A stretch of 64,000 nucleotides of DNA from Myxococcus fulvus (GTDB lineage Bacteria > Myxococcota > Myxococcia > Myxococcales > Myxococcaceae), in contig NZ_FOIB01000004.1 of the NCBI RefSeq assembly GCF_900111765.1, positions 496,001 through 560,000 on the forward strand. Direction: 5' to 3'. The notes under the pieces are model-generated. The model made no database searches and was not told the origin of the DNA. It worked only from the letters and a program-made list of their open reading frames with translations. Made by a program: the position numbers and the translations under genes. Shown here piece after piece: positions 30,813 to 44,586 of this stretch. Numbering within the stretch: the stretch's first letter is position 1; every line of letters begins with the position of its first letter.

Positions 30813-31664
30813 ATGTCCCTCCCTCCCTTGTCAACGCGTCGTCCCCCCACGCCTGTCACCTCGCGAGAGGAGGCCCCGCGTGAGGCGCCCCGGACGGAGC
30901 CCGCCGCGCCGGCGATGGCGCCTCGGGCGCAGCCTCCGGCGGAGTTCCGTGGCGTCTCCAGCTTCGACCCCGCTCCGGCGGGAGAGCGCCGACAGGTCGC
31001 GCAGGCGGTGACGGGCGCCGCGCCCAGCGCTCCCGCCGAAGCGCCGCGCGCGGGCTGGGCCCAGCGGGTCGGCAACTGGGCGGCGGACACGGCCCGGGGC
31101 TACGCCACGGGCGCCGCGAACCTCGTGCTGGACTCGGCGAGCCTGGTGAACGCCGGCGTCAACCGGGGCCTGGGGGCCGCCGGCATCGACTTCCGCTTCC
31201 GCACCGACCTGGCCATCCAGCCCCGCTCGCAGGCGGAGGCCGCCGCGCAGAACGCCGTGAGCCTCTCCTCGATGCTGCTGGGAGGCGTCGGGGCGGCCCG
31301 CGCCGCGGCGGGTGCCATCGCCCCCCGCGTGGGGGGTGCGGCGGCCGCCGCTGGAGTGGAGGGTGTGGCCGCGCCCGCCGCGGCGAGGGTGCTGTTGGAG
31401 GAGGCCAAGCAGGGCAAGCACATCGTCGGACACCAGAACTACATCCCGGGCCGCAGCCCCTTCACGCACTCCAACCCGCAGGGCCTGCTGGACCGCTTCT
31501 CCGGCCAGGGCCAGCCCGTGGGCAACGTCGCGCGCGGTCAGCCGGGCTTCCGGGAGCGGGTGGACTTCGGTGAGGTCATCGGTCAGGTCAACGGCCAGCC
31601 GACGACGCGCGGAATCATCCACTACTCGAGCCAGGGCGCGCATATCGTCCCCGCCAATCCATGA
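30813..31664 (+). CDS. Polymorphic toxin type 50 domain protein
   Basis: The 283-residue protein has a Pro/Ala/Arg-rich N-terminal third, a middle hydrophobic/Ala-Gly-rich region ('GYATGAANLVLDSASLVNAG', 'SSMLLGGVGAARAAAGAIAP') and a C-terminal domain of about 85 residues beginning 'KQGKHIVGHQNYIPGRS' and ending 'RGIIHYSSQGAHIVPANP'. The C-terminal pattern (KH...PGRS...H.NPQ.LLD, RVDFG..IG, HY...G.HIVPA) is that of polymorphic toxin type 50 (Ntox50), a predicted nuclease module. No recognised secretion domain is present, so the delivery route is unknown. The stop overlaps the ATG of the next gene (ATGA), the usual linkage for toxin and immunity genes. Confidence 0.8.
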   Translation: MSLPPLSTRRPPTPVTSREEAPREAPRTEPAAPAMAPRAQPPAEFRGVSSFDPAPAGERRQVAQAVTGAAPSAPAEAPRAGWAQRVGNWAADTARGYATGAANLVLDSASLVNAGVNRGLGAAGIDFRFRTDLAIQPRSQAEAAAQNAVSLSSMLLGGVGAARAAAGAIAPRVGGAAAAAGVEGVAAPAAARVLLEEAKQGKHIVGHQNYIPGRSPFTHSNPQGLLDRFSGQGQPVGNVARGQPGFRERVDFGEVIGQVNGQPTTRGIIHYSSQGAHIVPANP

Positions 31665-31960
31665 GCACCCCCAACCGAAGCAGCCTGGTCCACCTGTCGC
31701 TGCAGCGGGCGCTGCTGGGAGCGATTCCCTCCCGGCTGCGCGCCGTCACCGTCCGCTTCGATGACACCAAGGTGCACTTCGAGGCGTTCTTCGACGGCGC
31801 GATTCGCGACGAGGACCGCGAGACGATGTCCGAGGTGGAGACCGAGCTCATCGCGGACTTTCCCGATGACCACGAGATCTCCCACGAGTTGATCCGCCTG
31901 GACCCCCCGGCCCTGATTCCCAAGGACCGGGCGTGGGTCTACTACCGCCAGGAGTCGTAG
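31661..31960 (+). CDS. Probable immunity protein for the type 50 toxin
   Basis: The 99-residue acidic protein contains 'LQRALLGAIPSRLRAVTVRF', 'VHFEAFFDGAIRDEDRE', 'VETELIADFPD' and 'RAWVYYRQES'. This beta-alpha-beta order with a late 'I.ADFP' motif is a small family often found beside polymorphic toxins. Its ATG overlaps the toxin stop, and its net negative charge suits binding of a basic nuclease. Function as the cognate immunity protein is inferred from position and family resemblance. Confidence 0.72.
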   Translation: MSTPNRSSLVHLSLQRALLGAIPSRLRAVTVRFDDTKVHFEAFFDGAIRDEDRETMSEVETELIADFPDDHEISHELIRLDPPALIPKDRAWVYYRQES

Positions 31961-32010
31961 CCCTCGGGCCCGAGCGGTCAGGGCGTCACGCCAGCCCGCG
32001 TCGACGGCAC

Positions 32011-32031
32011 GCCATGCCTTCCCGGCATGGC
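32011..32031 (+). terminator. Small perfect hairpin after the immunity gene
   Basis: GCCATGCC (32011-32018) and GGCATGGC (32024-32031) pair perfectly over eight bases with a five-base loop. It lies between the immunity gene and the next gene, only 26 bases before that gene's ATG, so it may end or attenuate transcription. Confidence 0.5.
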
Positions 32032-32044
32032 CCTGCCCTTCCTC

Positions 32045-32050
32045 GAGGAG
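32045..32050 (+). promoter_or_regulatory. Ribosome binding site fixing the start at 32057
   Basis: GAGGAG six bases before ATG 32057 favours this codon over the in-frame ATG at 32027. Confidence 0.75.
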
Positions 32051-32056
32051 ACGCCC

Positions 32057-32485
32057 ATGGTGGAGACGCTCACGCTGTACCGCCCGGTGGGGCTGAAGGA
32101 GGCGCAGCTCGTCCGGGAGGTCGACGGCCGGGGCTTCCCTCCCCGGCTGCCGGACCAGCCCTTCTTCTACCCCGTGATGAACGTGGACTACGCCCGGCAG
32201 ATTGCCCGGGACTGGAACGCGCCGGACGCGGGCAGTGGCCACGTGGGCTTCGTCACCGCCTTCGACGTGGAGGCGCCCTTCCTCGCCCGCTACCCCGTCC
32301 GCACCGTGGGCGCGCGGCTCCACCAGGAGCTGTGGGTCCCCGCCGAGGAGCTCGCGGAGTTCAACGCCCGCATCGTGGGCCCCATCCGCTTCCTCGAGGC
32401 CTGGTTCGGCGCCGACTACCAGGGCCCCGCCATCCCCTGGGTCCCCGCCAGCGACCAGCACACCGTCGCCCGCCCGGCGCGCTGA
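32057..32485 (+). CDS. ADP-ribosylation/crystallin J1-like small protein
   Basis: The 142-residue soluble protein reads 'ETLTLYRPVGLKEAQLV', 'FPPRLPDQPFFYPVMN', 'YARQIARDWN', 'VGFVTAFDVEAPFLARYPV', 'HQELWVPAEELAEFNARIVG'. This is the conserved pattern of a small family commonly annotated as ADP-ribosylation/crystallin J1, although the family is not shown to have that activity. It is separated by hairpins from both neighbours and probably transcribed alone. No membrane segment or signal peptide is present. Confidence 0.75.
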   Translation: MVETLTLYRPVGLKEAQLVREVDGRGFPPRLPDQPFFYPVMNVDYARQIARDWNAPDAGSGHVGFVTAFDVEAPFLARYPVRTVGARLHQELWVPAEELAEFNARIVGPIRFLEAWFGADYQGPAIPWVPASDQHTVARPAR

Positions 32486-32520: not shown

Positions 32521-32546
32521 GCCGGGAGGGAAAGCCCCCTCCCGGC
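32521..32546 (+). terminator. Perfect 10-bp hairpin terminator
   Basis: GCCGGGAGGG (32521-32530) and CCCTCCCGGC (32537-32546) pair perfectly around a six-base loop, followed by 'aactattt'. It isolates the sigma-factor operon downstream from the J1-like gene. Confidence 0.8.
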
Positions 32547-32694
32547 AACTATTTCCGACCCGCCACGCAAGGAAATCGACCCCTCTTCGTTGAGGTGGAC
32601 GACCCATTTCGAGGGCACGCTCCGTATCCTTTTTCGAGGATGACGGCTGGCCGGGCATTGGGCCCGGACTCGGCTCGCGTGGGTCGGAGACACC

Positions 32695-33390
32695 GTGCTG
32701 CCAGGCAATGATCGCTCCGTCCTGGAGTCCTTCCGTCGTGGGGACACCACCGTCCTCACCCAGGTGTACCGCGCCTATTCGCCGGAGGTGCTGCGCTACC
32801 TCTCGCGACGGTTCGCGGTGGGCGCGGAGGGAGGAGGCAGCCGCACCATCTCCCTGTCCTCGCTGGACCTGGACGCGGCCCACCAGGAGACGTTCGTGCG
32901 CGCGTTCCGCCCCAACATGCGACAGGCCTACGACGGGGTCCGCCCCTACCTGGGCTTCCTGCTGACGGTGGCGCGCTCCACGGCCATCGACCTGATGCGC
33001 GCGTCGGGGCGGGTGTCCCGGGAAGCGGTGTCCCTGGACGAGGCGCCGGAGCTCGGTCAGCTCCCCAACGAGGGGCGCAGCCCGGAAGAGGAAGCGCTGG
33101 GCACCGAGGTGCGCGAGCTGGTGCGCCACTTCCTGGAGTCCCAGCCCGAGGAGGCCCGCGCGCTCGCCCAGCTGCGCTTCGTCGACGGGCTGTCCCAGGA
33201 GAGCGCCGCCGAGCAGCTCAAGCTCACCCGCGGAGAGGTCCGGGTGCGCGAGCGGCGGCTGCGCACGCAGTTCACCGAGTACCTGAAGACCTCCGGCTGG
33301 TTGGATTCGGCGGCGGAGCCCGGGAGCATGGAGCTGGGTGTGCTCCTGGCGACCCTCGCCCTGTGCGCCATAGGGAGCATCCCATCATGA
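32695..33390 (+). CDS. ECF-type RNA polymerase sigma factor with hydrophobic C-terminal tail
   Basis: The 231-residue protein has sigma region 2 ('DAAHQETFVRAFRPN', 'YLGFLLTVARSTAIDLMRAS') and region 4 ('ARALAQLRFVDGLSQESAAE', 'RGEVRVRERRLRTQF'), separated by a short linker as in ECF sigmas. The last 20 residues ('MELGVLLATLALCAIGSIPS') are hydrophobic and look like a membrane segment, which is unusual for a sigma factor. GTG 32695 follows a 'cggag' site. The stop overlaps the start of the anti-sigma gene by ATGA. The 148 bases upstream, after the terminator at 32546, must hold its promoter; two direct copies of 'tttcgagg' are the only regularity I see there. Confidence 0.85.
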   Translation: MLPGNDRSVLESFRRGDTTVLTQVYRAYSPEVLRYLSRRFAVGAEGGGSRTISLSSLDLDAAHQETFVRAFRPNMRQAYDGVRPYLGFLLTVARSTAIDLMRASGRVSREAVSLDEAPELGQLPNEGRSPEEEALGTEVRELVRHFLESQPEEARALAQLRFVDGLSQESAAEQLKLTRGEVRVRERRLRTQFTEYLKTSGWLDSAAEPGSMELGVLLATLALCAIGSIPS

Positions 33391-34133
33391 GGTGGTACGA
33401 GCGACACATCGACGCGGGACTGACGCGACAGGCCCAGGGTGAGCTGCCCTCGCCCCAGGCCGCCCGCCTGCTGCGCCATGCGCATCTGTGTCATCGATGT
33501 GGCCCGCTCTATGAACGCTGGGCCCGGGCGCAGCGCGCCCTGGAAGGCTCGCTGGACACGCCCTCCTCCGTGGAGCGTCACACCCTGACGGAAGGTGGCC
33601 TGGAGGCGGCGCTCGCGGCGGCGGCCCCGCTGGAGGCGCCCTCGCGCTGGCCCTCGCTGACAGCCCTGGGCGGCGCGCTGGCGGCGGTGGTGCTCGCGGT
33701 GGTGCTCACGTCGCTGCCCCGGGACGAGTTCCGCTCACGGGGCCTGGGCACGCCCCCACCCGGCGTCGCGCTGCGCATCTTCTGCGCCACGCCCGGCCAG
33801 CCGCTCAAGGAGCTCCACGCGAGCGAGGCCTGTCCCGCCGGCGCCATGCTCGCCTTCGCCGCCGGAGGCCAGGCGCCCTACACCCACGTGGCGCTCCAGG
33901 TCCGCGGCACCCAGCGCGCGGAGCTGATGGCCGGGCCCTTCGTGCTGACGGGCACCCCGGGTCAGGAGGCACCACTGGAGCTGACGGTGCCCTTGCCGGA
34001 GACGGTGGGTGAGGCGGAGGTGACGGCCGCGTTCGCCGGCAGCCCGTCCGCGGCCCTGGCGGCCTTGCGAGGGGAGGAGCAGGGGGGGGCAGTGGTGCTC
34101 AAGCAGACACTGAGGGTAGAGGAAGGTCCATGA
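33387..34133 (+). CDS. ZAS-like membrane anti-sigma factor
   Basis: The 248-residue protein has an N-terminal cytoplasmic part with 'HAHLCHRC' (His31, Cys35, Cys38), the H-x3-C-x2-C signature of zinc-containing anti-sigma domains. One transmembrane helix lies at about 92-110 ('LGGALAAVVLAVVLTSL'). The rest (111-248) is a periplasmic domain with beta-rich segments ('VALRIFCATPGQPL', 'APYTHVALQVRGTQRAELM'). Its place directly after, and overlapping, a sigma-factor gene strongly supports an anti-sigma role. Its stop overlaps the caspase gene start (ATGA). The periplasmic domain matches no sensor family I recognise. Confidence 0.8.
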   Translation: MRWYERHIDAGLTRQAQGELPSPQAARLLRHAHLCHRCGPLYERWARAQRALEGSLDTPSSVERHTLTEGGLEAALAAAAPLEAPSRWPSLTALGGALAAVVLAVVLTSLPRDEFRSRGLGTPPPGVALRIFCATPGQPLKELHASEACPAGAMLAFAAGGQAPYTHVALQVRGTQRAELMAGPFVLTGTPGQEAPLELTVPLPETVGEAEVTAAFAGSPSAALAALRGEEQGGAVVLKQTLRVEEGP

Positions 34134-35860
34134 ACAAGCTGGGAGTGCTCCTCGGGGTCGCCGCGCTCTTCGCAGCCCGCGACGCCTCGGCGGATGCCCT
34201 GGTCCGACGTGCCCTCGTGATTGCCCACAACGGGAGCGACGACCCGTCGCTGCCCGCGCTGCGCTTCGCCGACGATGACGGCGTGCTGTGGGCGGAGACG
34301 CTGCAACGGCTGGGCGTGGAGACCACGCTGCTGGTGGACCCGGACGCGGCGACGCGCGCGGGAGGACGGCCCGTGCTCGCGGGCGCGCGGCCGCCCACGC
34401 CGGACGAGGTGAAGCGCGAGGTGGCCCGGCTGCGCGCCGCCAGCCTGGCCGACGACGAGGCGGGGCGCGCCACGGACGTGCTCGTGGTGTACGTGGGCCA
34501 CGGCAACACGGACGAGGCGGGCCGCGCGTACTTCACGCTGGCCGGGGGCCGGCTGGACAAGTCGAGCCTCTACGCGGACGTGGTGGACCCGCTCGCCGCC
34601 GACTACGTGCACCTCATCGTGGACGCGTGCCGCGCCTCGGGCGTCGTCGGCAGCCGCGGCGGCCAGACGGAGGCGGCGGTGCTGGCGGAGCTGCGCGGCA
34701 TGCTCGCGCGCGAGCAGCTGGCCACGCGCCCCTCGGTGGGCGCCGTGTTCGCGGAGAGCGACGACGGCGAGACGCACGAGTGGTCGCGCATCCGCGCCGG
34801 CGTCTTCAGCCACGTGGCGCGCTCGGGCCTCTTGGGCGCCGCCGACATCAACGGCGACGGCCAGGTGGAGTACAGCGAGCTGGGCGCCTTCGTGTCCGCG
34901 TCGCTGCAGGGCGTCAAGGGCCTGCCCGCGCGGCTGAGCATCCACGCCTTCGCGCCCACCGGCGAGCCGCGCCGTCCGCTCGTCGGCGCCGCGCCCGCGG
35001 GCCCCAGCCTGGTGCTGAGCTCGAACTTCGGCCAGTCGCGCGTGTCCGTGGAGGACGCGGAGGGCCGGCGGCTCGCGGACGTGCGGCGCGCGGACGACCA
35101 GTACGTGATGCTGCGGCTGCCCGAGCGCGACGTGTACTGGCTGCGCACGCCCACCAGCGAGGCGCGCATCACCCTGGCGGAGCTGAGCCAGGGCGTGCTG
35201 GACTTGAAGCCGCGCGAGCTCCAGGAGCGCGGCCCCGCCGAGGAGGCGCTGCGCCGGGGCCTGTTCGCGGTGCCGCTCGACAAGAACTTCTATGACCAGT
35301 ACGTGGCGGCCGCGGGCCTGGTGCCGGTGGACTTCTCCCGCGCCTTCCCGCCGGCCGCGGGCGGCGGCCTGGTGCCCCGCTCGCTCGTGCTGACGGCCCC
35401 CCACCCGTTCTTCTCCGGCCTGGAGGTGGGGCTGGTGGGTCAGCAGGCGCCGCTGGGGCTCGACGCGTACGCCACCGGCCCCAGCCTGTCGTGGCGCAGC
35501 CAGGGCTCGTCGAACTTCTATTACGGCGGGCGCGCCAGCTACACGGTGATGCCCAAGCGGTTCGAGAACGTGCGCACGCACCGGGCCACGGTGCTGGCGC
35601 TGGTGGGCACCAGGGACGTGCAGCGCACCCCGCTGTTCCTGGAGGCCGGAGCGGGCTGGGGCATGCTCGGGGTGTCGTCGCCGAACAAGCGCATGGGGGA
35701 CCTCACGGTCTCCACGGGCCACTTCGCGGCGGGGGCGGCGGGGCGGCTCTTCGGCATGAACCTGCGGCTGGCCGCCACGGCCTCCGCGGACCGCGTCACG
35801 CTGGATGGCGACGACGCGTGGGACACGATGTTCGGTCTCGAGCTCGCGTTCCGACGCTGA
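34130..35860 (+). CDS. Exported caspase-like protease (peptidase C14) with EF-hand loop and C-terminal barrel
   Basis: The 576-residue protein starts with a signal peptide (cleavage near 'DASA', residue 21). Residues 25-235 are a caspase p20-like domain with both catalytic residues: His124 in 'VVYVGHGNTDE' and Cys167 in 'LIVDACRASG'. An EF-hand-type loop 'DINGDGQVEYSE' (239-250) follows. From about 415 to the end, alternating polar and apolar strands ('FFSGLEVGLVGQ', 'FYYGGRASYTVM', 'MFGLELAFRR') suggest an outer-membrane beta-barrel of roughly eight strands. Caspase homologues cleave after Arg/Lys or Asp; specificity here is unknown. The gene is third in a translationally coupled sigma/anti-sigma operon, so its expression is probably under that sigma factor. 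Confidence 0.85.
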   Translation: MNKLGVLLGVAALFAARDASADALVRRALVIAHNGSDDPSLPALRFADDDGVLWAETLQRLGVETTLLVDPDAATRAGGRPVLAGARPPTPDEVKREVARLRAASLADDEAGRATDVLVVYVGHGNTDEAGRAYFTLAGGRLDKSSLYADVVDPLAADYVHLIVDACRASGVVGSRGGQTEAAVLAELRGMLAREQLATRPSVGAVFAESDDGETHEWSRIRAGVFSHVARSGLLGAADINGDGQVEYSELGAFVSASLQGVKGLPARLSIHAFAPTGEPRRPLVGAAPAGPSLVLSSNFGQSRVSVEDAEGRRLADVRRADDQYVMLRLPERDVYWLRTPTSEARITLAELSQGVLDLKPRELQERGPAEEALRRGLFAVPLDKNFYDQYVAAAGLVPVDFSRAFPPAAGGGLVPRSLVLTAPHPFFSGLEVGLVGQQAPLGLDAYATGPSLSWRSQGSSNFYYGGRASYTVMPKRFENVRTHRATVLALVGTRDVQRTPLFLEAGAGWGMLGVSSPNKRMGDLTVSTGHFAAGAAGRLFGMNLRLAATASADRVTLDGDDAWDTMFGLELAFRR

Positions 35861-35886
35861 AGCGCCGAGCGGCCTCAGGGGGCCTC

Positions 35887-37827
35887 ATGATGCGACGTCT
35901 GGGAGTGACGCTGCTGAGCCTGCTGCTCGCCGGCTGCGACGGAATCAACCTGTCGCAGCTCGCCTGGCGCTACCCGCCATTGACCGTCTTCGACGTCGAG
36001 CCCCCGGGGCACCGGTGCCCGTACGGAGGGGACCGCGTCCTCACCGGGATGGACCACAACCAGGACGGGGTGCTGTCCGGCACGGAGGTGGTCTCGGAGC
36101 ACTTCAACTGCGCCGGCCAGCCGCTGGCCTGGCTGACGCAGGCGCGCCCCGTGGAGCCCACCGACTCCTGCCCCCTGGGCGGCGTGAGCACGCGCTCCGG
36201 CCTGGACCAGAATCGTGACGGCGAGCTGAGCGACGCGGAGGTCACCCACGAGCGGCTCGACTGCGCGGGCGTGTACCCGGTGAAGGTCCGGGTGCGGGGC
36301 GCCGCGGAGGGACATCCCGCGTGCGAAGGGGAAGGCACGCTGGTGGAGGCGGGGCCCGACCTGGATGGGGATGGTCAGCTCGGCGCCATCGAGCGGAGGT
36401 CCGTGGCGGTGCACTGTGGTGAGGCCCCCTCGCGAATCCTGGCGCGGCTGGAGGGCGAGCCCGTCGGGGCGCGCTGCGCGATGGGCGGCCACCGGGTGGA
36501 CTCCGGAGTGGACCAGAACGCCGACGGCATCCTCCAGGAGACGGAGGTCACCGAGCGCAGGCGGGTGTGCCTGGGACCGCCCATCCTCGACGGGACCCTC
36601 TTCGCGACCACCGCGGACGACTTCGCGCTGCTCAAGACGCTCTTCCGCATCGAGGGCTCGCTCGTGCTCTTCCGCACGCCGCTGGAGCAGCTCGTGCTGC
36701 CGCGGCTGGCGGAGATCTCCGGCGGGCTGGTGGTGGCGGAGAACGCCGCGCTGACGCGCCTGGAGCTGGACGCGCTGCGCTTCGTGGGCAACGAGGTCCA
36801 GATCTCCGTCAACCTGGAGCTCACGGTGCTGCGCTTCGGCGCGGCGACGCAGCCCGGGCCGGTGTGGCTGGAGAACAACCTCTCGGTCTGGAACAACCCC
36901 CGGCTGGCGAGCCTGGACGGGCTGCGGAGCGTGCGCGTCCGCCAGGAGCTCTACCTCGCCTACAACGACTCGGCGCAGAGCCTGGTGCCGTGGGACCTCA
37001 CGGACCTGGGGGGAACGCTCTCCGTCTCCGACCACAAGAGCCTCAGCCGGCTGCCATTCCAGAACCTGCGACGGGTGGGCGGCTCGCTCGCCCTCCACAA
37101 CAACCCGGCGTTGACCACGCTGAACTTCCCCGAGCTGCTGGAGGTGGGGCAGTCCATCGACATCGGCAACAACGCCGCGCTCAGCCGCCTGTCGGGGCTG
37201 TCGGCCCTGCGCAGGGTCCACGACGTCTTCATGGTGAGCAGCAACGAGTCCCTGCACTCCATCGACGCGATGCCGGGGCTCAACCACGTGGGCTCGCTGA
37301 TGCTGATGAACAGCCCTCGGCTGGAGACCTTCGACTTCACGAACCTCCAGACCATCCGCGGCCAGTTCGTGGTGGCCTACTGCCCGAAGCTGTCGCGCCT
37401 GGGAGCCTTCCCGCGCCTGGAGTCGGTCGCCGACCTGGAGCTCCTGGACAACGCCTTGCTGTGGGATGTCTCGGGCCTGGACCGCGTCCGGAGCCTGCGC
37501 TCGCTCGTGGTGCGGGACAATGCCTCCCTGCAAGGCCTGGCGGGCCTGCGCAAGCTCCTGTCCGTGTCGGACCTGACCATCCAGGACAACGGCAGGCTGC
37601 TGACGTTGGACCTGGACGGGCTGGTGGAGGTCGGCGCCACGCTGACCATCCAGCGCAACACGTCACTGCCGTCGTGTCTGGCGAACCAGCTGGCGGACCG
37701 CGTCTTCCGGGGTGAGACGCGCACCATCCAGGACAACGACGAGCAGGCCCCCTGCTCCTCGCCCCTGCTTCCCCTCGGAGAGCCGGTCGCGGCCCGCGTG
37801 GTCGTCACTGGAGACGACGCACCATGA
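35887..37827 (+). CDS. Lipoprotein with four DUF7151 (EF-hand-like) modules and L-domain repeats, paralogue 1
   Basis: The 646-residue lipoprotein (Cys17 in 'LLLAGCDG', Asp at +2) contains four modules of about 45 residues, each of the form C..GG....G.D.N.DG.L...EV.....C, for example 'DHNQDGVLSGTE', 'DQNRDGELSDAE' and 'DQNADGILQETE'. These match a 12-residue EF-hand loop and the DUF7151 pattern. From about residue 245 there are receptor-L-type leucine-rich repeats, each with a strand and an Asn turn ('LVVAENAALTRLELDALRFV', 'LSVWNNPRLASLDGL', 'LTIQDNGRLLTLDL'). Two ATGs (35887, 35890) are possible starts. It begins 26 bases after the caspase gene, and its stop overlaps the next paralogue. Confidence 0.85.
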   Translation: MMRRLGVTLLSLLLAGCDGINLSQLAWRYPPLTVFDVEPPGHRCPYGGDRVLTGMDHNQDGVLSGTEVVSEHFNCAGQPLAWLTQARPVEPTDSCPLGGVSTRSGLDQNRDGELSDAEVTHERLDCAGVYPVKVRVRGAAEGHPACEGEGTLVEAGPDLDGDGQLGAIERRSVAVHCGEAPSRILARLEGEPVGARCAMGGHRVDSGVDQNADGILQETEVTERRRVCLGPPILDGTLFATTADDFALLKTLFRIEGSLVLFRTPLEQLVLPRLAEISGGLVVAENAALTRLELDALRFVGNEVQISVNLELTVLRFGAATQPGPVWLENNLSVWNNPRLASLDGLRSVRVRQELYLAYNDSAQSLVPWDLTDLGGTLSVSDHKSLSRLPFQNLRRVGGSLALHNNPALTTLNFPELLEVGQSIDIGNNAALSRLSGLSALRRVHDVFMVSSNESLHSIDAMPGLNHVGSLMLMNSPRLETFDFTNLQTIRGQFVVAYCPKLSRLGAFPRLESVADLELLDNALLWDVSGLDRVRSLRSLVVRDNASLQGLAGLRKLLSVSDLTIQDNGRLLTLDLDGLVEVGATLTIQRNTSLPSCLANQLADRVFRGETRTIQDNDEQAPCSSPLLPLGEPVAARVVVTGDDAP

Positions 37828-39716
37828 GATGGACCTGGCTGGCCCTGCTGCCGCTCACGGCGGGGTGTGACTCCTTGAGCATCCGCGACCTGATGGACCA
37901 CCCGACGGCGGTCAGCCGGAACGTGGTGGAGCTGCCCGGCGAGCGGTGTGAGCTGGGAGGCCGCGACGTGCTGGTAGGCACGGACGACAACCGCAACGGC
38001 GTGCTCGACGACGAGGAGGTGACGGGCTCGACGCTCGTCTGCGCCATCTCCGAGGCACAGATGCGGGTGGAGCAGCAGCCGGTGCCCCCGGGCGAGAAGT
38101 GTCCGGGCGGAGGGTGGGTCACCCGCGCGGGCTACGACTTCGATGAGGACGGCGTGCTGGACATGGAGGAGGTCGCCCGCGAGGTGTACTCGTGCCGTGA
38201 CATCGCCGAGGCCCAGCTGCTCACGCGCACGCGCGCGGCCACGCCCTCCTCCCGCGTCTGCCTGGAGCCCACCGTGCTCACCGTCGTCGAGGCGGGCCAC
38301 GACGAGAACGGCGACGAGGTGCTCGGCGACGACGAGGTGCGCACCCGCATGGACATCTGCGTGGAGGCCTCCCGACTGCTCGTCACGCGCGCCTGGGAGC
38401 CGACGTGCGCGGCCGGGGGCACCCGCGTCAGCGCGGGCATGGACCTGGACGCGGACGGAGTGCTCGACGACGAGGAGGTGCTCGCCTCGAACCCCATCTG
38501 CGAGGACCTGAACACGTTCGACGGCACCTTCGTCATCCGGGGGCCGGTGGACCTGGCCGTGCTGAAGGGCATCTCCCGCATCCGGGGCAGCCTGGAGGTG
38601 AGGACGGGCACCACCCCGGTCTCCGAGCTCCGGCTCACCGCGCTGGAGGTCGTCGACGGCACGCTGTACGTGCAGGACAACGCGTCCCTCACGCGGCTGG
38701 AGCTGCCCGGGCTGCGGTTCATCGGCCAGGGGCTGAGCGTGCTGAACAACGCCGCGCTGGAGACGGTGACGGTGGGCGGCGCGACGGGACAGTCCTCCTG
38801 GGTGGGCACCAACCTGGAGGTGGCGCACAACCCCCGACTCCAGAGCCTGGACGGGCTCCAGTCGGTGGTGCCGCGAGGCGGCGTGCTCATCGAGGACAAC
38901 GCGCGGCTCGCCCACACCTCCGAGGGCCTGGGACTGCGCGCCATCCAGACGCTGACGGGCTCGCTGCGCATCAAGGACAACCCCGCGCTGGCGCTGCTGC
39001 CGCTGCCGAACCTGACGAGCGTGGCGCAGAGCGTGCTCATCGAGAACAACGCCCGCCTCACCACCCTGGAGGGCACGCGGCTGGAGCACATCGGCAAGAA
39101 CCTGGAGGTGACGAACAACCCCGCGCTGCGCACGCTGACGGGGCTGGCGGCGCTGCACACCATCGGGGTGACGCTGGAGGTCCGGCTCAACGCGGCGCTC
39201 GTCGACAGCAACGGGCTGGGCTCGCTCGCGCAGGTGGAGAGCATCTTCTTCTCGCGCAACGACGCGCTGGCGTGGTGGGGGAACATGCCCCGGCTGCAGA
39301 GCCTGCGAGGCACCCTCTCGCTGGAGGCCCACGCGCGCCTGGTGGAGGTGCGCGGCATGGAGTCGCTGCGGATGCTGTCGTGGCTGAGCCTCTACAACAA
39401 CCCCGCGCTGACGACGCTGACGGGGCTTGCGGGCGTGGAGCGGCTGACGGGGCTGGCCTCGGAGCAGAACGGCGCGCTGACCAGCCTCGCGGACCTGAAG
39501 GGCCTGCGCACCTTGGAGTCGCTGATGCTGCTGGACAACCCCCTCCTGACGGAGCTGGGGCTGCCCGCGGTGCAGCAGGTGTCCCGGTACTTCTCCATCC
39601 AGCGCAATCCCCAGCTCCCCACGTGCCGGGTGAGGGCCTTCGGTGAGCGCGTCTACACCGGTCCGGGGAACGTCTACCTGGTGGCGGGCAACGACGACGC
39701 GGCCACCTGTCCCTGA
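37824..39716 (+). CDS. Lipoprotein with four DUF7151 modules and L-domain repeats, paralogue 2
   Basis: The 630-residue lipoprotein (Cys15 in 'LTAGCDSL') has the same plan as its neighbours: four EF-hand-like modules ('DDNRNGVLDDEE', 'DFDEDGVLDMEE', 'DENGDEVLGDDE', 'DLDADGVLDDEE') and then L-domain repeats from about 230, beginning 'FDGTFVIRGPVDLAVLKGIS'. The third module has Glu where the second loop Asp-Gly normally gives Gly ('GDEV'), so it may bind calcium poorly. Its ATG overlaps the stop of paralogue 1. Sequence identity to the others looks moderate, so the duplication is old. It probably acts as a periplasm-facing or surface binding protein; the ligand is unknown. Confidence 0.84.
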   Translation: MRWTWLALLPLTAGCDSLSIRDLMDHPTAVSRNVVELPGERCELGGRDVLVGTDDNRNGVLDDEEVTGSTLVCAISEAQMRVEQQPVPPGEKCPGGGWVTRAGYDFDEDGVLDMEEVAREVYSCRDIAEAQLLTRTRAATPSSRVCLEPTVLTVVEAGHDENGDEVLGDDEVRTRMDICVEASRLLVTRAWEPTCAAGGTRVSAGMDLDADGVLDDEEVLASNPICEDLNTFDGTFVIRGPVDLAVLKGISRIRGSLEVRTGTTPVSELRLTALEVVDGTLYVQDNASLTRLELPGLRFIGQGLSVLNNAALETVTVGGATGQSSWVGTNLEVAHNPRLQSLDGLQSVVPRGGVLIEDNARLAHTSEGLGLRAIQTLTGSLRIKDNPALALLPLPNLTSVAQSVLIENNARLTTLEGTRLEHIGKNLEVTNNPALRTLTGLAALHTIGVTLEVRLNAALVDSNGLGSLAQVESIFFSRNDALAWWGNMPRLQSLRGTLSLEAHARLVEVRGMESLRMLSWLSLYNNPALTTLTGLAGVERLTGLASEQNGALTSLADLKGLRTLESLMLLDNPLLTELGLPAVQQVSRYFSIQRNPQLPTCRVRAFGERVYTGPGNVYLVAGNDDAATCP

Positions 39717-39770
39717 AGGCGACACGTCGTGCGAGCCGGGTCTCCACGCCCGGGAAGAAAGGGGGCTCCC

Positions 39771-41795
39771 ATGCGGTGGTACTGGCTGGTGCCGCTGGCC
39801 TGGCTGTGCGGCTGTGATGACATCCGACTGAGCAACTTCCTCGAGCCGCGCCCGACGTTGAGCCGCAAGGAGGTGGTGCCTCCCGGCGAGCACTGCGCGC
39901 ACGGCGGTCAGGTGGCGTACGCGGGCGAGGACCTGGACGGCGACGGGCTGCTCGCCGAAGACGAGGTCACCCGCGCGGAGTACCTGTGCACGCCCCAGGC
40001 GCTGTCGCGCACGCGGACCGAGCTCGCGGGCGTGCACTGCGAGCTGGGCGGCCGCGCGGTGGAGACGGGCGTGGACACCAACGCGAACGGCACGCTCGAG
40101 GATGACGAGGTGGACGCCGTCGAGTACGTCTGCGCCACCCCCTTCCCCGGTGTGCTGGTGCGCATGCGGAACGAGCCCTCGGGCACGACGTGTCCGCAGG
40201 GAGGGCAGGTCACCCACGCGGGGCTCGACACGAACGGGGACGGCGTCCTCCAGACCGATGAAATCACCCGCGAGGTCGTGGGCTGCATGGAGCCGGCGCA
40301 AGTCCTCTCTCGGCTCGAGTCCCTGGGCATCCTCGCGGGCGGCGACTGCGGCGAGCGGCCCGTGTACGCGGTGGAGTCCGGGCCGGACGAGGACGGTGAC
40401 GGCACGCTCGACGACGACGAGGTGCGGGCCACCCGTCGCCTGTGCGCCTCGACGAGCGCGCTGCTGTGGCGCCAGGTCGACGAGCCCGGCGGCCTCCACT
40501 GCGTCTCCGGTGGCGTCGCGGTGGCCTCGGGCAGCGACACCAATCAGGACGGCGCGTTGCAGGAGAGTGAAGTCCTCGCCACCGCGTATGTCTGTCACCC
40601 TTCCGCGACCCATGACGGCGACTACGAGGTGAGGACGCCCTCGGACCTCGCGGCGCTGCAGGGCATCTCGCACATCCGGGGCGACCTGCTCATCTCCTCG
40701 CCCGGCATCCAGGCGCTCTCCCTCCCAGGCCTGGAGTCCGTCGAGGGGCACCTGCGCATCCGGAGCAATCCCCAGCTCGACCGCGTGGCGCTGACGGGCC
40801 TGCGCTTCGTGCGCGAGGACCTGTCCATCACCGAGAACGGCCTGCTGGTGATGGTGGTGACCGACGCCAACCGTGCGTTGCACGTGGGCGGCTCCCTGCG
40901 GGTGGAGCGGAACATGCTCCTGCGCTGGCTGGGCCTGAACTCCATCGTCCCGCATCGGGACTTCCACCTCACGAGCAACGCCTCGCTGGTGGAGGTGGGC
41001 CCCCTGCCCTTCATGGATGCGCTCACCGGCGAGCTGGTCATCGAGGACAACCGGGCCCTGACGGGCGTGCTCATCCCCAAGCTCCTCCGCATCGGCACCC
41101 ACCTCACCATCCAGGGCAACGTCGCCCTGCGCTCGCTCGAGGGCCTCAAGGGCCTTCAGAGCGTCGGAGGGGACTTCACCCTGGCGGAGAACGGCGTGCT
41201 GCCGGGCGTCGCGGGGCTGGCCAGTCTCGAGCGCGTGGGAGGAGACGTGCTGGTCTGGGACAACGCAGCCCTGACGCGCTTCACCCTGCCCCAGCTCAGG
41301 AGCGTCGGGAGCCTGTCGTTCCTGGAGAACCCGGCGTTGACCACCATCGGCCCGCTCGTCGCGCTGGTGGACACGGGCCACGCCTTCAGCCTCTTCCTGA
41401 ACGACAACCTGGACACCCTCACGGGGCTGACTCAGTTGCGCGCCCTGAACGGCACGCTCTCCATCCAAGGCAACCCGAAGCTCGACAGCCTCATGGCCTT
41501 CGAGCCGCTGGAGTCGTTGACCTACCTGCAGGTCACCGAGAACCACGCCCTGCCGAGCCTCGCGGGCCTGCACAACCTCCGCACCCTGGACACGCTGTCG
41601 GTGCGCGAGAACCCGGCCCTCACGACGCTTGGGCTCCAGGCGCTGCGACAGGTGCGCGGCGCCTTCGCGGTGCTCAACAACGACAGGCTGCCGCAGTGTG
41701 CCGCCACCGCGCTGGCGGACTCCGTCTTCACCGGCCCCGAGGACGAGCGCTCCGTCCAGGGCAACGACACGATGGCGGTGTGCACGCCTCCTTGA
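39771..41795 (+). CDS. Lipoprotein with five DUF7151 modules and L-domain repeats, paralogue 3
   Basis: The 674-residue lipoprotein (Cys15 in 'WLCGCDDI') carries five EF-hand-like modules: 'DLDGDGLLAEDE', 'DTNANGTLEDDE', 'DTNGDGVLQTDE', 'DEDGDGTLDDDE' and 'DTNQDGALQESE'. L-domain repeats start near residue 285 ('YEVRTPSDLAALQGISHIRG') and run to the end. It is 54 bases after paralogue 2 and probably the last gene of the operon. ATG 39771 is preferred over the in-frame start at 39729 because it gives the lipoprotein signal that lines up with the two paralogues ('MRW.WL...L..GCD'). Confidence 0.84.
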   Translation: MRWYWLVPLAWLCGCDDIRLSNFLEPRPTLSRKEVVPPGEHCAHGGQVAYAGEDLDGDGLLAEDEVTRAEYLCTPQALSRTRTELAGVHCELGGRAVETGVDTNANGTLEDDEVDAVEYVCATPFPGVLVRMRNEPSGTTCPQGGQVTHAGLDTNGDGVLQTDEITREVVGCMEPAQVLSRLESLGILAGGDCGERPVYAVESGPDEDGDGTLDDDEVRATRRLCASTSALLWRQVDEPGGLHCVSGGVAVASGSDTNQDGALQESEVLATAYVCHPSATHDGDYEVRTPSDLAALQGISHIRGDLLISSPGIQALSLPGLESVEGHLRIRSNPQLDRVALTGLRFVREDLSITENGLLVMVVTDANRALHVGGSLRVERNMLLRWLGLNSIVPHRDFHLTSNASLVEVGPLPFMDALTGELVIEDNRALTGVLIPKLLRIGTHLTIQGNVALRSLEGLKGLQSVGGDFTLAENGVLPGVAGLASLERVGGDVLVWDNAALTRFTLPQLRSVGSLSFLENPALTTIGPLVALVDTGHAFSLFLNDNLDTLTGLTQLRALNGTLSIQGNPKLDSLMAFEPLESLTYLQVTENHALPSLAGLHNLRTLDTLSVRENPALTTLGLQALRQVRGAFAVLNNDRLPQCAATALADSVFTGPEDERSVQGNDTMAVCTPP

Positions 41796-41900: not shown

Positions 41901-43562
41901 ATGGCCAAGCCCGTCATCCTCGCGGTGGACGACGACACGGAGGTGCTTCGCGCGGTGGAGCGCGACTTGCGGCGCCAGTACGGCCGCGAGTACCGGGTGC
42001 TCAGCGCGGACCGGGGAGAGGCCGCGCTGGAGACGGTGCGCCAGCTGCGGCTGCGTGGTGACCCGGTGGCGCTCTTCCTCGTGGACCAGCGCATGCCGGG
42101 CATGTCCGGCGTGGAGTTCCTGGAGCAGGCGAAGGCGCTCTACGACGAGGCCCGGCGCGTGCTGCTCACCGCGTACGCGGACACGCAGGCGGCCATCCAC
42201 GCCATCAACGAGGTGCGGCTGGACCACTACCTGCTCAAGCCGTGGGAGCCGCCCGAGGAGCGCCTGTATCCGGTGCTGACGGACCTGCTGGAGGAGTGGC
42301 GGGCGCACCACCCGCCGGCCTTCGAGGGCATCCGCGTGCTGGGCAACCGCTGGGCCCCCCGCTCGCATGCGCTGCGCGACTTCCTGGGCAGCAACCAGGT
42401 GCCGTACCAGTGGCTCGACGTGGAGGCCAGCGACGAGGGCCGCCTGCTGCTCGCGCAGGCCGGAGGCGCCGCCGTGGAGAAGCTGCCGCTGGTGCTCTTC
42501 CCGGACGGCACGCGGTTGATGGGCCCGTCCACGCTGGAGGTGGCCGAGCGCATCGGGTTGAAGGTGCGCGCCACCAAGCCCTTCTACGACCTGGTCATCA
42601 TCGGCGGAGGTCCCGCGGGGCTGGCGGCCGCGGTGTATGGCGCGTCCGAGGGGCTGGGCACCGTGATGGTGGAGCGCAGCGCGCCGGGAGGACAGGCGGG
42701 CACCAGCTCGCGCATCGAGAACTACCTGGGCTTCCCCGCGGGGCTGAGCGGCTCGGACCTGGCGCGGCGGGCGGTGGCGCAGGCGGCGCGCTTCGGGGTG
42801 GAGATATTGACGCCGCAGGAGGTGAGCCACCTGCGCGTGGAGGACCCGTACCGCATCGTCACGCTCGCGGACGGCACGGAGCTGAGCTGTCACGCGCTGC
42901 TGCTCGCGATGGGTGTGCAGTGGAAGAAGCTCTCCACGCCCGGCATGGAGGCGCTCACCGGGGCGGGCGTCTACTACGGCTCGTCGCGCACGGAGGCGCT
43001 GTCGTGCAAGGACGAGGAGGTCTACATCATCGGCGGCGCCAACTCCGCCGGACAGGCCGCGCTCTACTTCGCGCAGTTCGCCCGCCGGGTGACGTTGGTG
43101 GTGCGCGGGGACTCGCTGGAGAAGGGCATGTCCCATTACCTCGTCGAGCAGGTGCGCTCGCTCGCCAACGTCACGGTGCTGCTCGACACGGAGGTGACGC
43201 GCGTGGAGGGCGGCGCGCATCTGGAGCGCGTCACGCTCGCCACGCGAGGACAGCCCGAGCGCACCGTGCCCGCGAGCACGCTGTTCGTGATGATTGGCGC
43301 GGTGCCGAGGACGGAGTGGCTGGACGGCCTGGTGGCGCGTGACGAGCGCGGCTACATCCTCACCGGTCCGGACCTGATGCCGGCCGGACAGCGGCCCAAG
43401 GGGTGGAAGCCGGAGCGGGCGCCGTTCCTGTTGGAGACGAGCGTGCCGGGCATCTTCGCCGCGGGCGACGTGCGCCACGCCTCCATCAAGCGCGTGGCCT
43501 CCGGCGTGGGCGAGGGCTCCATCGCCATCTCCTTCATCCATCAGTACCTGAGCGAGGTGTGA
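41901..43562 (+). CDS. Fused response regulator/thioredoxin reductase-like protein
   Basis: The 553-residue cytoplasmic protein has three parts. Residues 1-125 are a receiver domain with 'VDDD', phospho-acceptor Asp62 ('LVDQRMPGMSG'), 'LLTAYAD' and 'LLKPWE'. Residues of about 145-225 form a thioredoxin/glutaredoxin-like fold ('IRVLGNRWAPRSHALRDFLG', 'PLVLFPDGTRL') without a CxxC. Residues 230-553 are an FAD/NAD(P)-binding thioredoxin-reductase fold ('VIIGGGPAGLAAAVYGAS', 'APGGQAGTSSRIENYLGFP', 'IIGGANSAGQAALYFA', 'GIFAAGDVR'). The usual CATC redox pair is replaced ('VYYGSSRTEALSC'), so it cannot act as a standard disulphide reductase. The next gene, one base away, is a histidine kinase and probable partner. 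Confidence 0.9.
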   Translation: MAKPVILAVDDDTEVLRAVERDLRRQYGREYRVLSADRGEAALETVRQLRLRGDPVALFLVDQRMPGMSGVEFLEQAKALYDEARRVLLTAYADTQAAIHAINEVRLDHYLLKPWEPPEERLYPVLTDLLEEWRAHHPPAFEGIRVLGNRWAPRSHALRDFLGSNQVPYQWLDVEASDEGRLLLAQAGGAAVEKLPLVLFPDGTRLMGPSTLEVAERIGLKVRATKPFYDLVIIGGGPAGLAAAVYGASEGLGTVMVERSAPGGQAGTSSRIENYLGFPAGLSGSDLARRAVAQAARFGVEILTPQEVSHLRVEDPYRIVTLADGTELSCHALLLAMGVQWKKLSTPGMEALTGAGVYYGSSRTEALSCKDEEVYIIGGANSAGQAALYFAQFARRVTLVVRGDSLEKGMSHYLVEQVRSLANVTVLLDTEVTRVEGGAHLERVTLATRGQPERTVPASTLFVMIGAVPRTEWLDGLVARDERGYILTGPDLMPAGQRPKGWKPERAPFLLETSVPGIFAAGDVRHASIKRVASGVGEGSIAISFIHQYLSEV

Positions 43563-43563
43563 C

Positions 43564-44586
43564 GTGTCCGTGGAAGCAAAGCAGCCCCAGGAGCGACTGC
43601 GGTGCCTGGAGCACACCGTGCTGCGCCAGGAGAAGCTGGCCGCGCTGGGGCGACACGCGGCGGGGCTCGCGCACGAGATGAACAACCCGGCCTCCGCGGG
43701 CCGACGCGCCACCGAGCAGCTCACCCAGGCCATGGACGCGCAGGAGGACCTGTCCGTCGCGCTCGACCAGTGGCGCCTGACGCAGGCCCAGCGACAGCTG
43801 CTCCTGCGCACCTGCCGACAGAGCCAGGGCCGGGGCGCGACCCGGGACATGGACCCGCTCACGCGCGCAGACGCCGAGGACGCGCTGGCCACATGGATGG
43901 ACGCGAAGGGCGTGGTGAACGCGTGGGACCTGTCCCCCACGTTGCTGGACGCGGGCATCGGAGAGGCGCAACTGGAGCCGCTCACCCAGGCCCTGCCCGC
44001 CGAGGCACTGCCGGACGCGCTCGCGTGGTTGGAGGCCCTGGTGCGCACGCGCGCGCTGCTGGCGGAGGTGCGGCAGAGCACCACGCGGCTGTCGGAGCTG
44101 GCGGGCGCGGTGAAGTCCTATACCCACGCGGGCAAGGAGCAGCCCGAGCCCGTGGACGTGCACGAGGGACTGGAGAACACGCTGCTCCTGCTCAACTACA
44201 AGCTGAAGCACGGCGTCGAGGTGAAGCGCGAGTACGACCGGAGCCTCCCGCGCGTGCAGGCGCTGCCCGGGATGCTGAACCACGTGTGGACCAACCTGGT
44301 CGACAACGCCATCGACGCCATGGGCGGCAAGGGCCACCTCACGGTGCGCACCGCGAAGGACGCGGACTCCCTCCTCGTGGAGGTGGTGGACGATGGGCCC
44401 GGTGTCCCGCCGGAGCTGCTCGAGCGCATCTGGGAGCCCTTCTTCACCACCAAGCCCATGGGTCAGGGCACCGGACTGGGCCTGGACATCATCCGCCGCG
44501 TCATCGTGGACCGGCACCACGGCGACGTGCGCGTGGAGTCGAAGCCGGGCCGCACCGCCTTCCAGATACGCCTGCCCCTGAAGTGA
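43564..44586 (+). CDS. Soluble sensor histidine kinase, partner of the fused regulator
   Basis: The 340-residue kinase has its phospho-acceptor in 'AGLAHEMNNPASAG' (His37), only 36 residues from the start, so there is almost no input domain. A long helical middle region precedes the ATPase domain with the N box ('WTNLVDNAIDAMGG'), G1 ('VVDDGPGVPPELLERIWEPF') and G2 ('GTGLGLDIIRR'). It has no membrane segment. GTG 43564 follows the fused response regulator/reductase stop by one base, so the two form a two-component pair. Its middle region ('DAEDALATWMDAKGVVNAWD') is clearly related to the kinases at 44590 and 46367. Confidence 0.9.
   Translation: MSVEAKQPQERLRCLEHTVLRQEKLAALGRHAAGLAHEMNNPASAGRRATEQLTQAMDAQEDLSVALDQWRLTQAQRQLLLRTCRQSQGRGATRDMDPLTRADAEDALATWMDAKGVVNAWDLSPTLLDAGIGEAQLEPLTQALPAEALPDALAWLEALVRTRALLAEVRQSTTRLSELAGAVKSYTHAGKEQPEPVDVHEGLENTLLLLNYKLKHGVEVKREYDRSLPRVQALPGMLNHVWTNLVDNAIDAMGGKGHLTVRTAKDADSLLVEVVDDGPGVPPELLERIWEPFFTTKPMGQGTGLGLDIIRRVIVDRHHGDVRVESKPGRTAFQIRLPLK

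Follow-up and report, generated by a model that had tools for sequence, protein, structure and literature searches.

The DegS/RseA/RpoE system is an envelope-stress pathway whose protease, DegS, is an inner-membrane serine protease; in proteolysis of this type, the anti-sigma factor is cut in its periplasmic domain in a regulated manner and then within the membrane. Proteases of the caspase type have also been described next to sigma factors. According to Asplund-Samuelsson et al. (2012, PMC3501461), four of the five metacaspases of Myxococcus xanthus are encoded in operons with sigma-70 factors, and sigma-70/metacaspase operons also occur in Anaeromyxobacter, Haliangium, Sorangium, Ralstonia, and Fibrobacter. 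In the type III-E CRISPR system, the caspase-clan (CHAT) protease Csx29 cleaves Csx30, an inhibitor of the extracytoplasmic function (ECF) sigma factor CASP-sigma (PMC10028731). Here, we analyzed a stretch of 64,000 nucleotides of the Myxococcus fulvus genome (contig NZ_FOIB01000004.1, positions 496,001 to 560,000; the window), in which six genes of the forward strand (32695–41795) encode a sigma factor, an anti-sigma factor, a caspase, and the lipoproteins LP1, LP2, and LP3. Our results are best explained if this set represents a module that recurs across Myxococcota and comprises an ECF sigma factor, a transmembrane (TM) zinc anti-sigma factor, a predicted outer-membrane (OM) caspase, and a 3′ slot for exchangeable lipoproteins.

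The gene coordinates given by a first-pass annotation of the window were correct, as were the ATGA overlaps at 33387, 34130, and 37824 and the gaps of 26 and 54 bases at the remaining junctions, and the operon anatomy is well supported. The same annotation knew of no described system pairing an ECF sigma factor with an exported caspase and such lipoproteins. This claim does not hold: the operon, like those published in 2012 (PMC3501461), carries sigma-70 and metacaspase genes together in Myxococcus, so that the pairing itself is not new and the sigma–caspase link is known in outline. Meanwhile, a Pfam scan of the operon genes and their near neighbors revealed no cas gene or CHAT protein of the type III-E kind.

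The sigma and anti-sigma genes were located directly 5′ of the caspase gene in all 40 Myxococcaceae orthologue loci examined (58–97% identity; the named relatives with 84–86% caspase identity are Myxococcus species). The ~50% paralogue class has the same gene order as the operon, and in the ~39% class the sigma/anti-sigma pair is divergent from the caspase, yet still adjacent to it. For ten other Myxococcota families the top matches, not a random sample, were used and four phylum loci without a called caspase gene were left unscored; a sigma gene was upstream of the caspase in 16 of the 16 scorable loci, with an anti-sigma gene detected between them in 14. The M. fulvus genome itself (10.8 Mb) has ~60 strong ECF-type genes and ten caspases, eight of which are preceded by a same-strand ECF sigma gene ~1 kb upstream with a TM anti-sigma gene between, while one more is accompanied by an anti-sigma gene only. 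No upstream genes were called for the 45% paralogue (L075). The caspase is essentially inseparable from the sigma/anti-sigma pair, even when the two are transcribed divergently. The co-occurrence across Myxococcota that the first-pass annotation proposed to look for was thus found for the unit of sigma factor, anti-sigma factor, and caspase; the six genes do not form a fixed system, as the lipoproteins are lineage-specific.

The first gene (32695–33390, + strand) has a GTG start and encodes a protein of 231 amino acids. It was annotated as an ECF sigma factor, which is borne out by its match to TIGR02937 (66.5 bits against a cut-off of 42.9; 2.1e-18); Sigma70_ECF and Sigma70_r4 also scored above the cut-off, and the protein has sigma regions 2 and 4 only. 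Its C-terminus (33320–33387) is a hydrophobic stretch, MELGVLLATLALCAIG, that resembles a short membrane anchor; this tail is retained in most close orthologues and absent in Archangium.

The second gene (33387–34133, +) encodes the TM anti-sigma factor of 248 amino acids with a single TM stretch, for which no Pfam family was matched. The zinc anti-sigma (ZAS) motif H31-x3-C35-x2-C38 (33477–33500), already noticed in the first-pass annotation, is invariant in 21 homologues. The AlphaFold2 (AF2) model has a helical N-terminal domain, a low-confidence TM stretch, and an immunoglobulin (Ig)-like beta-sandwich at residues 127–245. The protein therefore combines the motif, the N-terminal helices, the hydrophobic TM stretch, and the neighboring sigma gene of a ZAS protein, and sigma binding is predicted. 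A paralogue, the anti-sigma factor of module L148, reaches the zf-HC2 cut-off. A family was also sought for the beta-sandwich, but the structural matches were only generic (best Z 7.9) and none is claimed.

The dipeptide R118-G119 (33738–33743, +), which follows the TM helix and is invariant in the same 21 homologues, is our candidate caspase cleavage site. R118 lies in a low-confidence linker (pLDDT < 50 at residues 117–122) ahead of the beta-sandwich, and a [KR]-G pair is present near this place in 11 of 11 anti-sigma factors of other families as well as in all modules of the M. fulvus genome. The sequence of the operon's own protein at this site is FRSR-G. The caspase-fold protease MALT1 cuts BCL10 after Arg228, in the substrate sequence LRSR (PMC3500650); by analogy, Arg or Lys before Gly would suit a caspase-fold protease with a basic P1 preference. 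This genome contains no other DUF4384 protein that could serve as a control for the conservation of the site.

The third gene (34130–35860, +) encodes an exported caspase (orthocaspase) of 576 amino acids with a signal peptide and a predicted C-terminal OM beta-barrel. It matched PF00656 (Peptidase_C14) at 23.0 bits against a cut-off of 21.4 (7.4e-5), and its structure was modeled with AF2 from 18 orthologues. The caspase fold comprises residues 24–289 (34199–34996); residues 19–289 aligned with caspase-6 at Z 15.6 (VIA-align), as expected for a C14/orthocaspase fold with a His–Cys dyad. The dyad named in the first-pass annotation, H124 (34499–34501) and C167 (34628–34630), proved to be invariant in caspases down to ~20% identity. 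The residues invariant among the caspases of this genome at that identity include L44, R45, D50, H124, C167, D239, D243, and E250, which cover the dyad, a putative S1 aspartate, and a loop of the Ca-binding type. This EF-hand-like loop (D239–E250; 34844–34879), whose D239, D243, and E250 are kept in divergent caspases, matched EF-hand_5 in Pfam at 0.0063, below the cut-off. In the metacaspase TbMCA2, Asp95 and Asp211 are placed in the proposed S1 pocket (PMC4357240), and we take D50 and D165 to be their likely equivalents in the operon caspase. Orthocaspases cleave after basic, positively charged residues (PMC6426788); the conserved putative S1 aspartate predicts that this caspase also cuts after Arg or Lys.

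The C-terminal part of the caspase, residues 424–576 (35399–35857), is predicted to be an eight-stranded OM beta-barrel. In the AF2 model, eight strands of 9–21 residues each lie at positions 431–575, and the block-mean pLDDT from residue 431 is 74–92, mostly above 80. Residues 424–576 aligned with NspA at Z 17.0 (root-mean-square deviation 3.3 over 149 residues) and with OmpA at Z 16.2 (2.5 over 147), and Foldseek matched the region to OprF (1.6e-5). The predicted fold is thus that of the OmpA/OmpX/NspA class, membrane insertion being itself a prediction, and the model suggests that the caspase is tethered in the outer membrane by this barrel. Both ends of eight-stranded OM barrels are in the periplasm; the catalytic domain of a caspase anchored in this way would therefore face the periplasm. 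The first-pass annotation had the caspase as exported, which agrees with our results, but a protein with such an anchor would not be merely exported. A home-made amphipathic-strand score was also tried as a barrel detector and rejected: it gave no separation, the operon caspase itself scoring z 0.5, so that barrels are assigned to the paralogues solely from their C-terminal sequence.

Other arrangements were also seen in this genome. The caspases L147 and L150 (G000 C5 and C1) are long, have glycine-rich, repeat-like stretches ahead of a C-terminus that resembles a barrel, and lack an adjacent sigma gene. At L176:3900-5796 (G000 C1), sigma and anti-sigma genes are followed by a gene for a protein with a signal peptide and a beta-barrel-like region but no caspase domain, as if the barrel alone persisted. 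At L177:7435-9858 (G000 C3), the next gene after this pair encodes a relative of the module L149 lipoprotein, and there is no caspase gene.

The lipoprotein genes occupy the 3′ part of the operon on the same strand. LP1 (35887–37827) has the lipobox AGC-D, DUF7151 modules, and an L-domain/leucine-rich repeat (LRR) region; LP2 (37824–39716) has four DUF7151 modules and LP3 (39771–41795) has five, each with an L-domain/LRR region, and LP3 is missing at this place in the sister genome G058. The modular lipoproteins described by the first-pass annotation were recovered by profiles: each contained 3–5 passing DUF7151 stretches (down to 8.9e-57), and Recep_L_domain was also matched (Pfam/NCBIfam). 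A genome-wide search with PF01030 found nothing at E 0.001, although the whole-protein Pfam scores were clear, and the literature searched contained nothing on DUF7151. In comparison with G058, dN/dS was 0.29 for the sigma factor, 0.06 for the anti-sigma factor, 0.12 for the caspase, 0.65 for LP1, and 0.40 for LP2; the anti-sigma factor and the caspase are thus strongly constrained, and the lipoproteins far less so.

Each genus member examined has one to four DUF7151 lipoprotein genes directly 3′ of the caspase, and Citreicoccus has one. The same slot holds a lipoprotein whose similarity to BNR is weak or absent in Corallococcus, Hyalangium, and some Archangium-type genomes, a 1227-amino-acid fn3/FG-GAP protein in others, and, downstream in the 39% class, a putative-Ig protein. 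Among the modules of the M. fulvus genome, the first downstream gene encodes a lipoprotein in six of eight, compared with 30 of 247 genes (12%) in the sampled loci; modules L148 and L019 have no adjacent lipoprotein and keep the sigma triad. The DUF7151/L-domain lipoproteins are a lineage-specific cargo, fast-evolving, present in one to four copies, and largely confined to this genus.

The lipobox is followed by Asp at +2 in 55 of 69 lipoproteins. Under the E. coli rule, +2 Asp directs a lipoprotein to the inner membrane. In M. xanthus, +2 Lys marks the inner membrane and +7 Ala marks the matrix (PMC3222651). By these M. xanthus signals, an outer-membrane location of the lipoproteins is tentatively favored.

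A conserved ECF-type promoter, ACGACCC-N16-CCGTATC (32599–32628, +), lies ~67 nt 5′ of the sigma start. In the orthologues, the element ACRACCC-N16/17-CCGTAT is mostly found 60–75 nt 5′ of the called sigma start. The strict pattern was present in 29 of 35 orthologue upstream regions and in 0.46% of shuffles, and one Corallococcus sequence has a one-base variant (TCGTATC). The pattern RACCC-N15-17-CCGTATC occurs twice in the genome, at the operon and at one other place, a count no higher than that of the reversed control pattern. The promoter is conserved and essentially unique in the genome; the simplest reading is therefore that the regulon of the sigma factor is probably its own operon, which would be autoregulated. 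Between the upstream gene and the promoter lies a hairpin (32521–32546, no strand) that had been thought to isolate the operon. Its perfect 10-bp stem with a 6-nt loop is real; the isolation is not borne out, since it has no U-tract, was not scored as an intrinsic terminator in the terminator scan, and stands upstream of the promoter.

The envelope-sensor model of the first-pass annotation is plausible, and we tentatively propose a trans-envelope relay as its form, which is quite possible though short of probable. In the resting state, the anti-sigma factor would hold the sigma factor at the inner membrane, as the ZAS motif and the TM helix suggest. The caspase would be exported and anchored by its barrel in the outer membrane, with the catalytic domain facing the periplasm according to the predicted fold. 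A signal from the surface or envelope, possibly Ca2+ or the state of a lipoprotein or the barrel, would activate the caspase. Acting like a site-1 protease, the caspase would then cut the anti-sigma factor next to the membrane, at the invariant R118-G119. The freed sigma factor would transcribe its own operon from the promoter at 32599, which is identified by conservation and presumably recognized by this sigma factor, so that more caspase and lipoproteins would be made. The lipoproteins may be surface or envelope binding proteins that set what is sensed or displayed. It is less likely, and on the whole doubtful, that the relay extends to a family of myxobacterial OM-anchored caspases acting as site-1 proteases, each cutting its cognate TM anti-sigma factor at a conserved juxtamembrane Arg/Lys-Gly with an exchangeable lipoprotein defining the input; information would then travel from the outer membrane to transcription, with ~8 parallel relays per genome.

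Several observations weigh against the relay. The cleavage step, which we infer, is weakened by the caspase-less sigma/anti-sigma modules L176 and L177 of the same genome, which keep [KR]-G. Because of these two modules, the motif may be structural, or else be served in trans by a paralogue, and its conservation was discarded as proof of a cleavage site. The spacing of [KR]-G is also tied less closely to the TM stretch than to the point where the beta-sandwich begins, and one anti-sigma factor of the 39% class has R-S-G. The caspases of the 39% class lack the barrel. A caspase tethered in the outer membrane would have to span the distance to a site close to the inner membrane, and the intervening residues 290–424 are largely of low confidence in the model. 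Outside the two domains this model is poor (mean pLDDT 64.8), with region 210–270 below 50.

The same caspase-less modules, in which the sigma pair is followed by a barrel-like protein alone or a lipoprotein alone, are consistent with a different order of events: the sigma pair would sense the signal on its own via other proteases, and the caspase and lipoproteins would be no more than its output, with the caspase processing or shedding the co-encoded lipoproteins at the cell surface from its place in the outer membrane. The operon looks like its own regulon, so that both would be products of sigma activity, and a lipoprotein usually follows the caspase. This is a possibility to be taken seriously, if not a likely one: the lipoprotein folds found alongside the caspase (LRR, BNR-like, fn3/FG-GAP, Ig) are unrelated and thus unlikely to share a single substrate site, and L148 and L019 retain the sigma triad with no neighboring lipoprotein. 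The fast evolution of the lipoproteins, their copy number of 1–4, and the unrelated lipoproteins at the same place might instead suggest a separate variable locus for surface recognition (of kin, prey, or phage) whose only tie to an unrelated sigma/caspase stress operon is co-transcription. We consider this improbable: the genes are tightly coupled by a 26-bp gap and an ATGA overlap, the genus members examined have retained one or more DUF7151 genes immediately downstream of the caspase, and unrelated modules carry lipoproteins in the same slot. Regulated cell death, in which the sigma pair would control the expression of a protease that kills the cell during development or in defense, was raised as a possibility for the M. 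xanthus metacaspases together with their conserved operon (PMC3501461). For the present operon it is very improbable, since an exported caspase with a predicted OM anchor is badly placed for degrading the cytoplasm, and both the lipoprotein cargo and the number of caspases (ten per genome) speak for a role in the envelope.

The genes flanking the operon were also inspected. Further upstream, the lipoprotein encoded at 28249–30537 combines Ig domains with an endonuclease/exonuclease/phosphatase domain and a Lamin Tail Domain. The region 31008–32485 contains a gene with a C-terminal Ntox50 domain (bacterial toxin 50; Pfam 2e-22) and then two small genes; at ~1.05, the dN/dS of the last of these (32027–32485) relative to the sister genome would fit an immunity gene. 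Directly 3′ of the operon (41901–44586) are a response-regulator/pyridine-nucleotide-oxidoreductase fusion and then a histidine kinase; in many genus members, a response-regulator-fusion/kinase pair of the same length comes after the lipoprotein genes.

What bacterial caspases do is largely unknown. With this phylum-wide module, a candidate substrate can be named, a candidate cleavage site is at hand, and a single promoter would serve as readout, so that the question can be tested in laboratory strains of Myxococcus. A caspase anchored by an OM barrel, if true, would extend the set of proteases controlling anti-sigma factors. The literature searched contained nothing on a caspase fused to a beta-barrel or an orthocaspase with a barrel, so that this is apparently a new architecture; within the same literature, three further features also appear to be new: the slot in which lipoproteins are exchanged, the promoter by which the operon would regulate itself, and the candidate cleavage site. 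Compared with the sigma/metacaspase operons of 2012 (PMC3501461), the TM anti-sigma factor, predicted OM barrel, promoter, lipoprotein slot, and mechanism found here are without counterpart in the consulted sections of that description. The caspase-like protease in an ECF gene context is reminiscent of the ECF54 sigma factors, which have CHAT, subtilase, or carboxypeptidase neighbors (PMC8999054). Like OmpA, OmpX, and NspA, the caspase has a predicted eight-stranded barrel (residues 424–576), but unlike in these proteins it is fused behind a caspase domain. Csx29, Csx30, and CASP-sigma belong to an RNA-guided system with Cas7-11, whereas the operon described here encodes an exported protease and a TM anti-sigma factor. 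In our proposal, as in the DegS/RseA system, a protease of the envelope would cut a TM anti-sigma factor in its periplasmic part, here at a conserved candidate site; unlike DegS, this protease is a cysteine protease with a predicted OM anchor, and it shares an operon with the anti-sigma factor.

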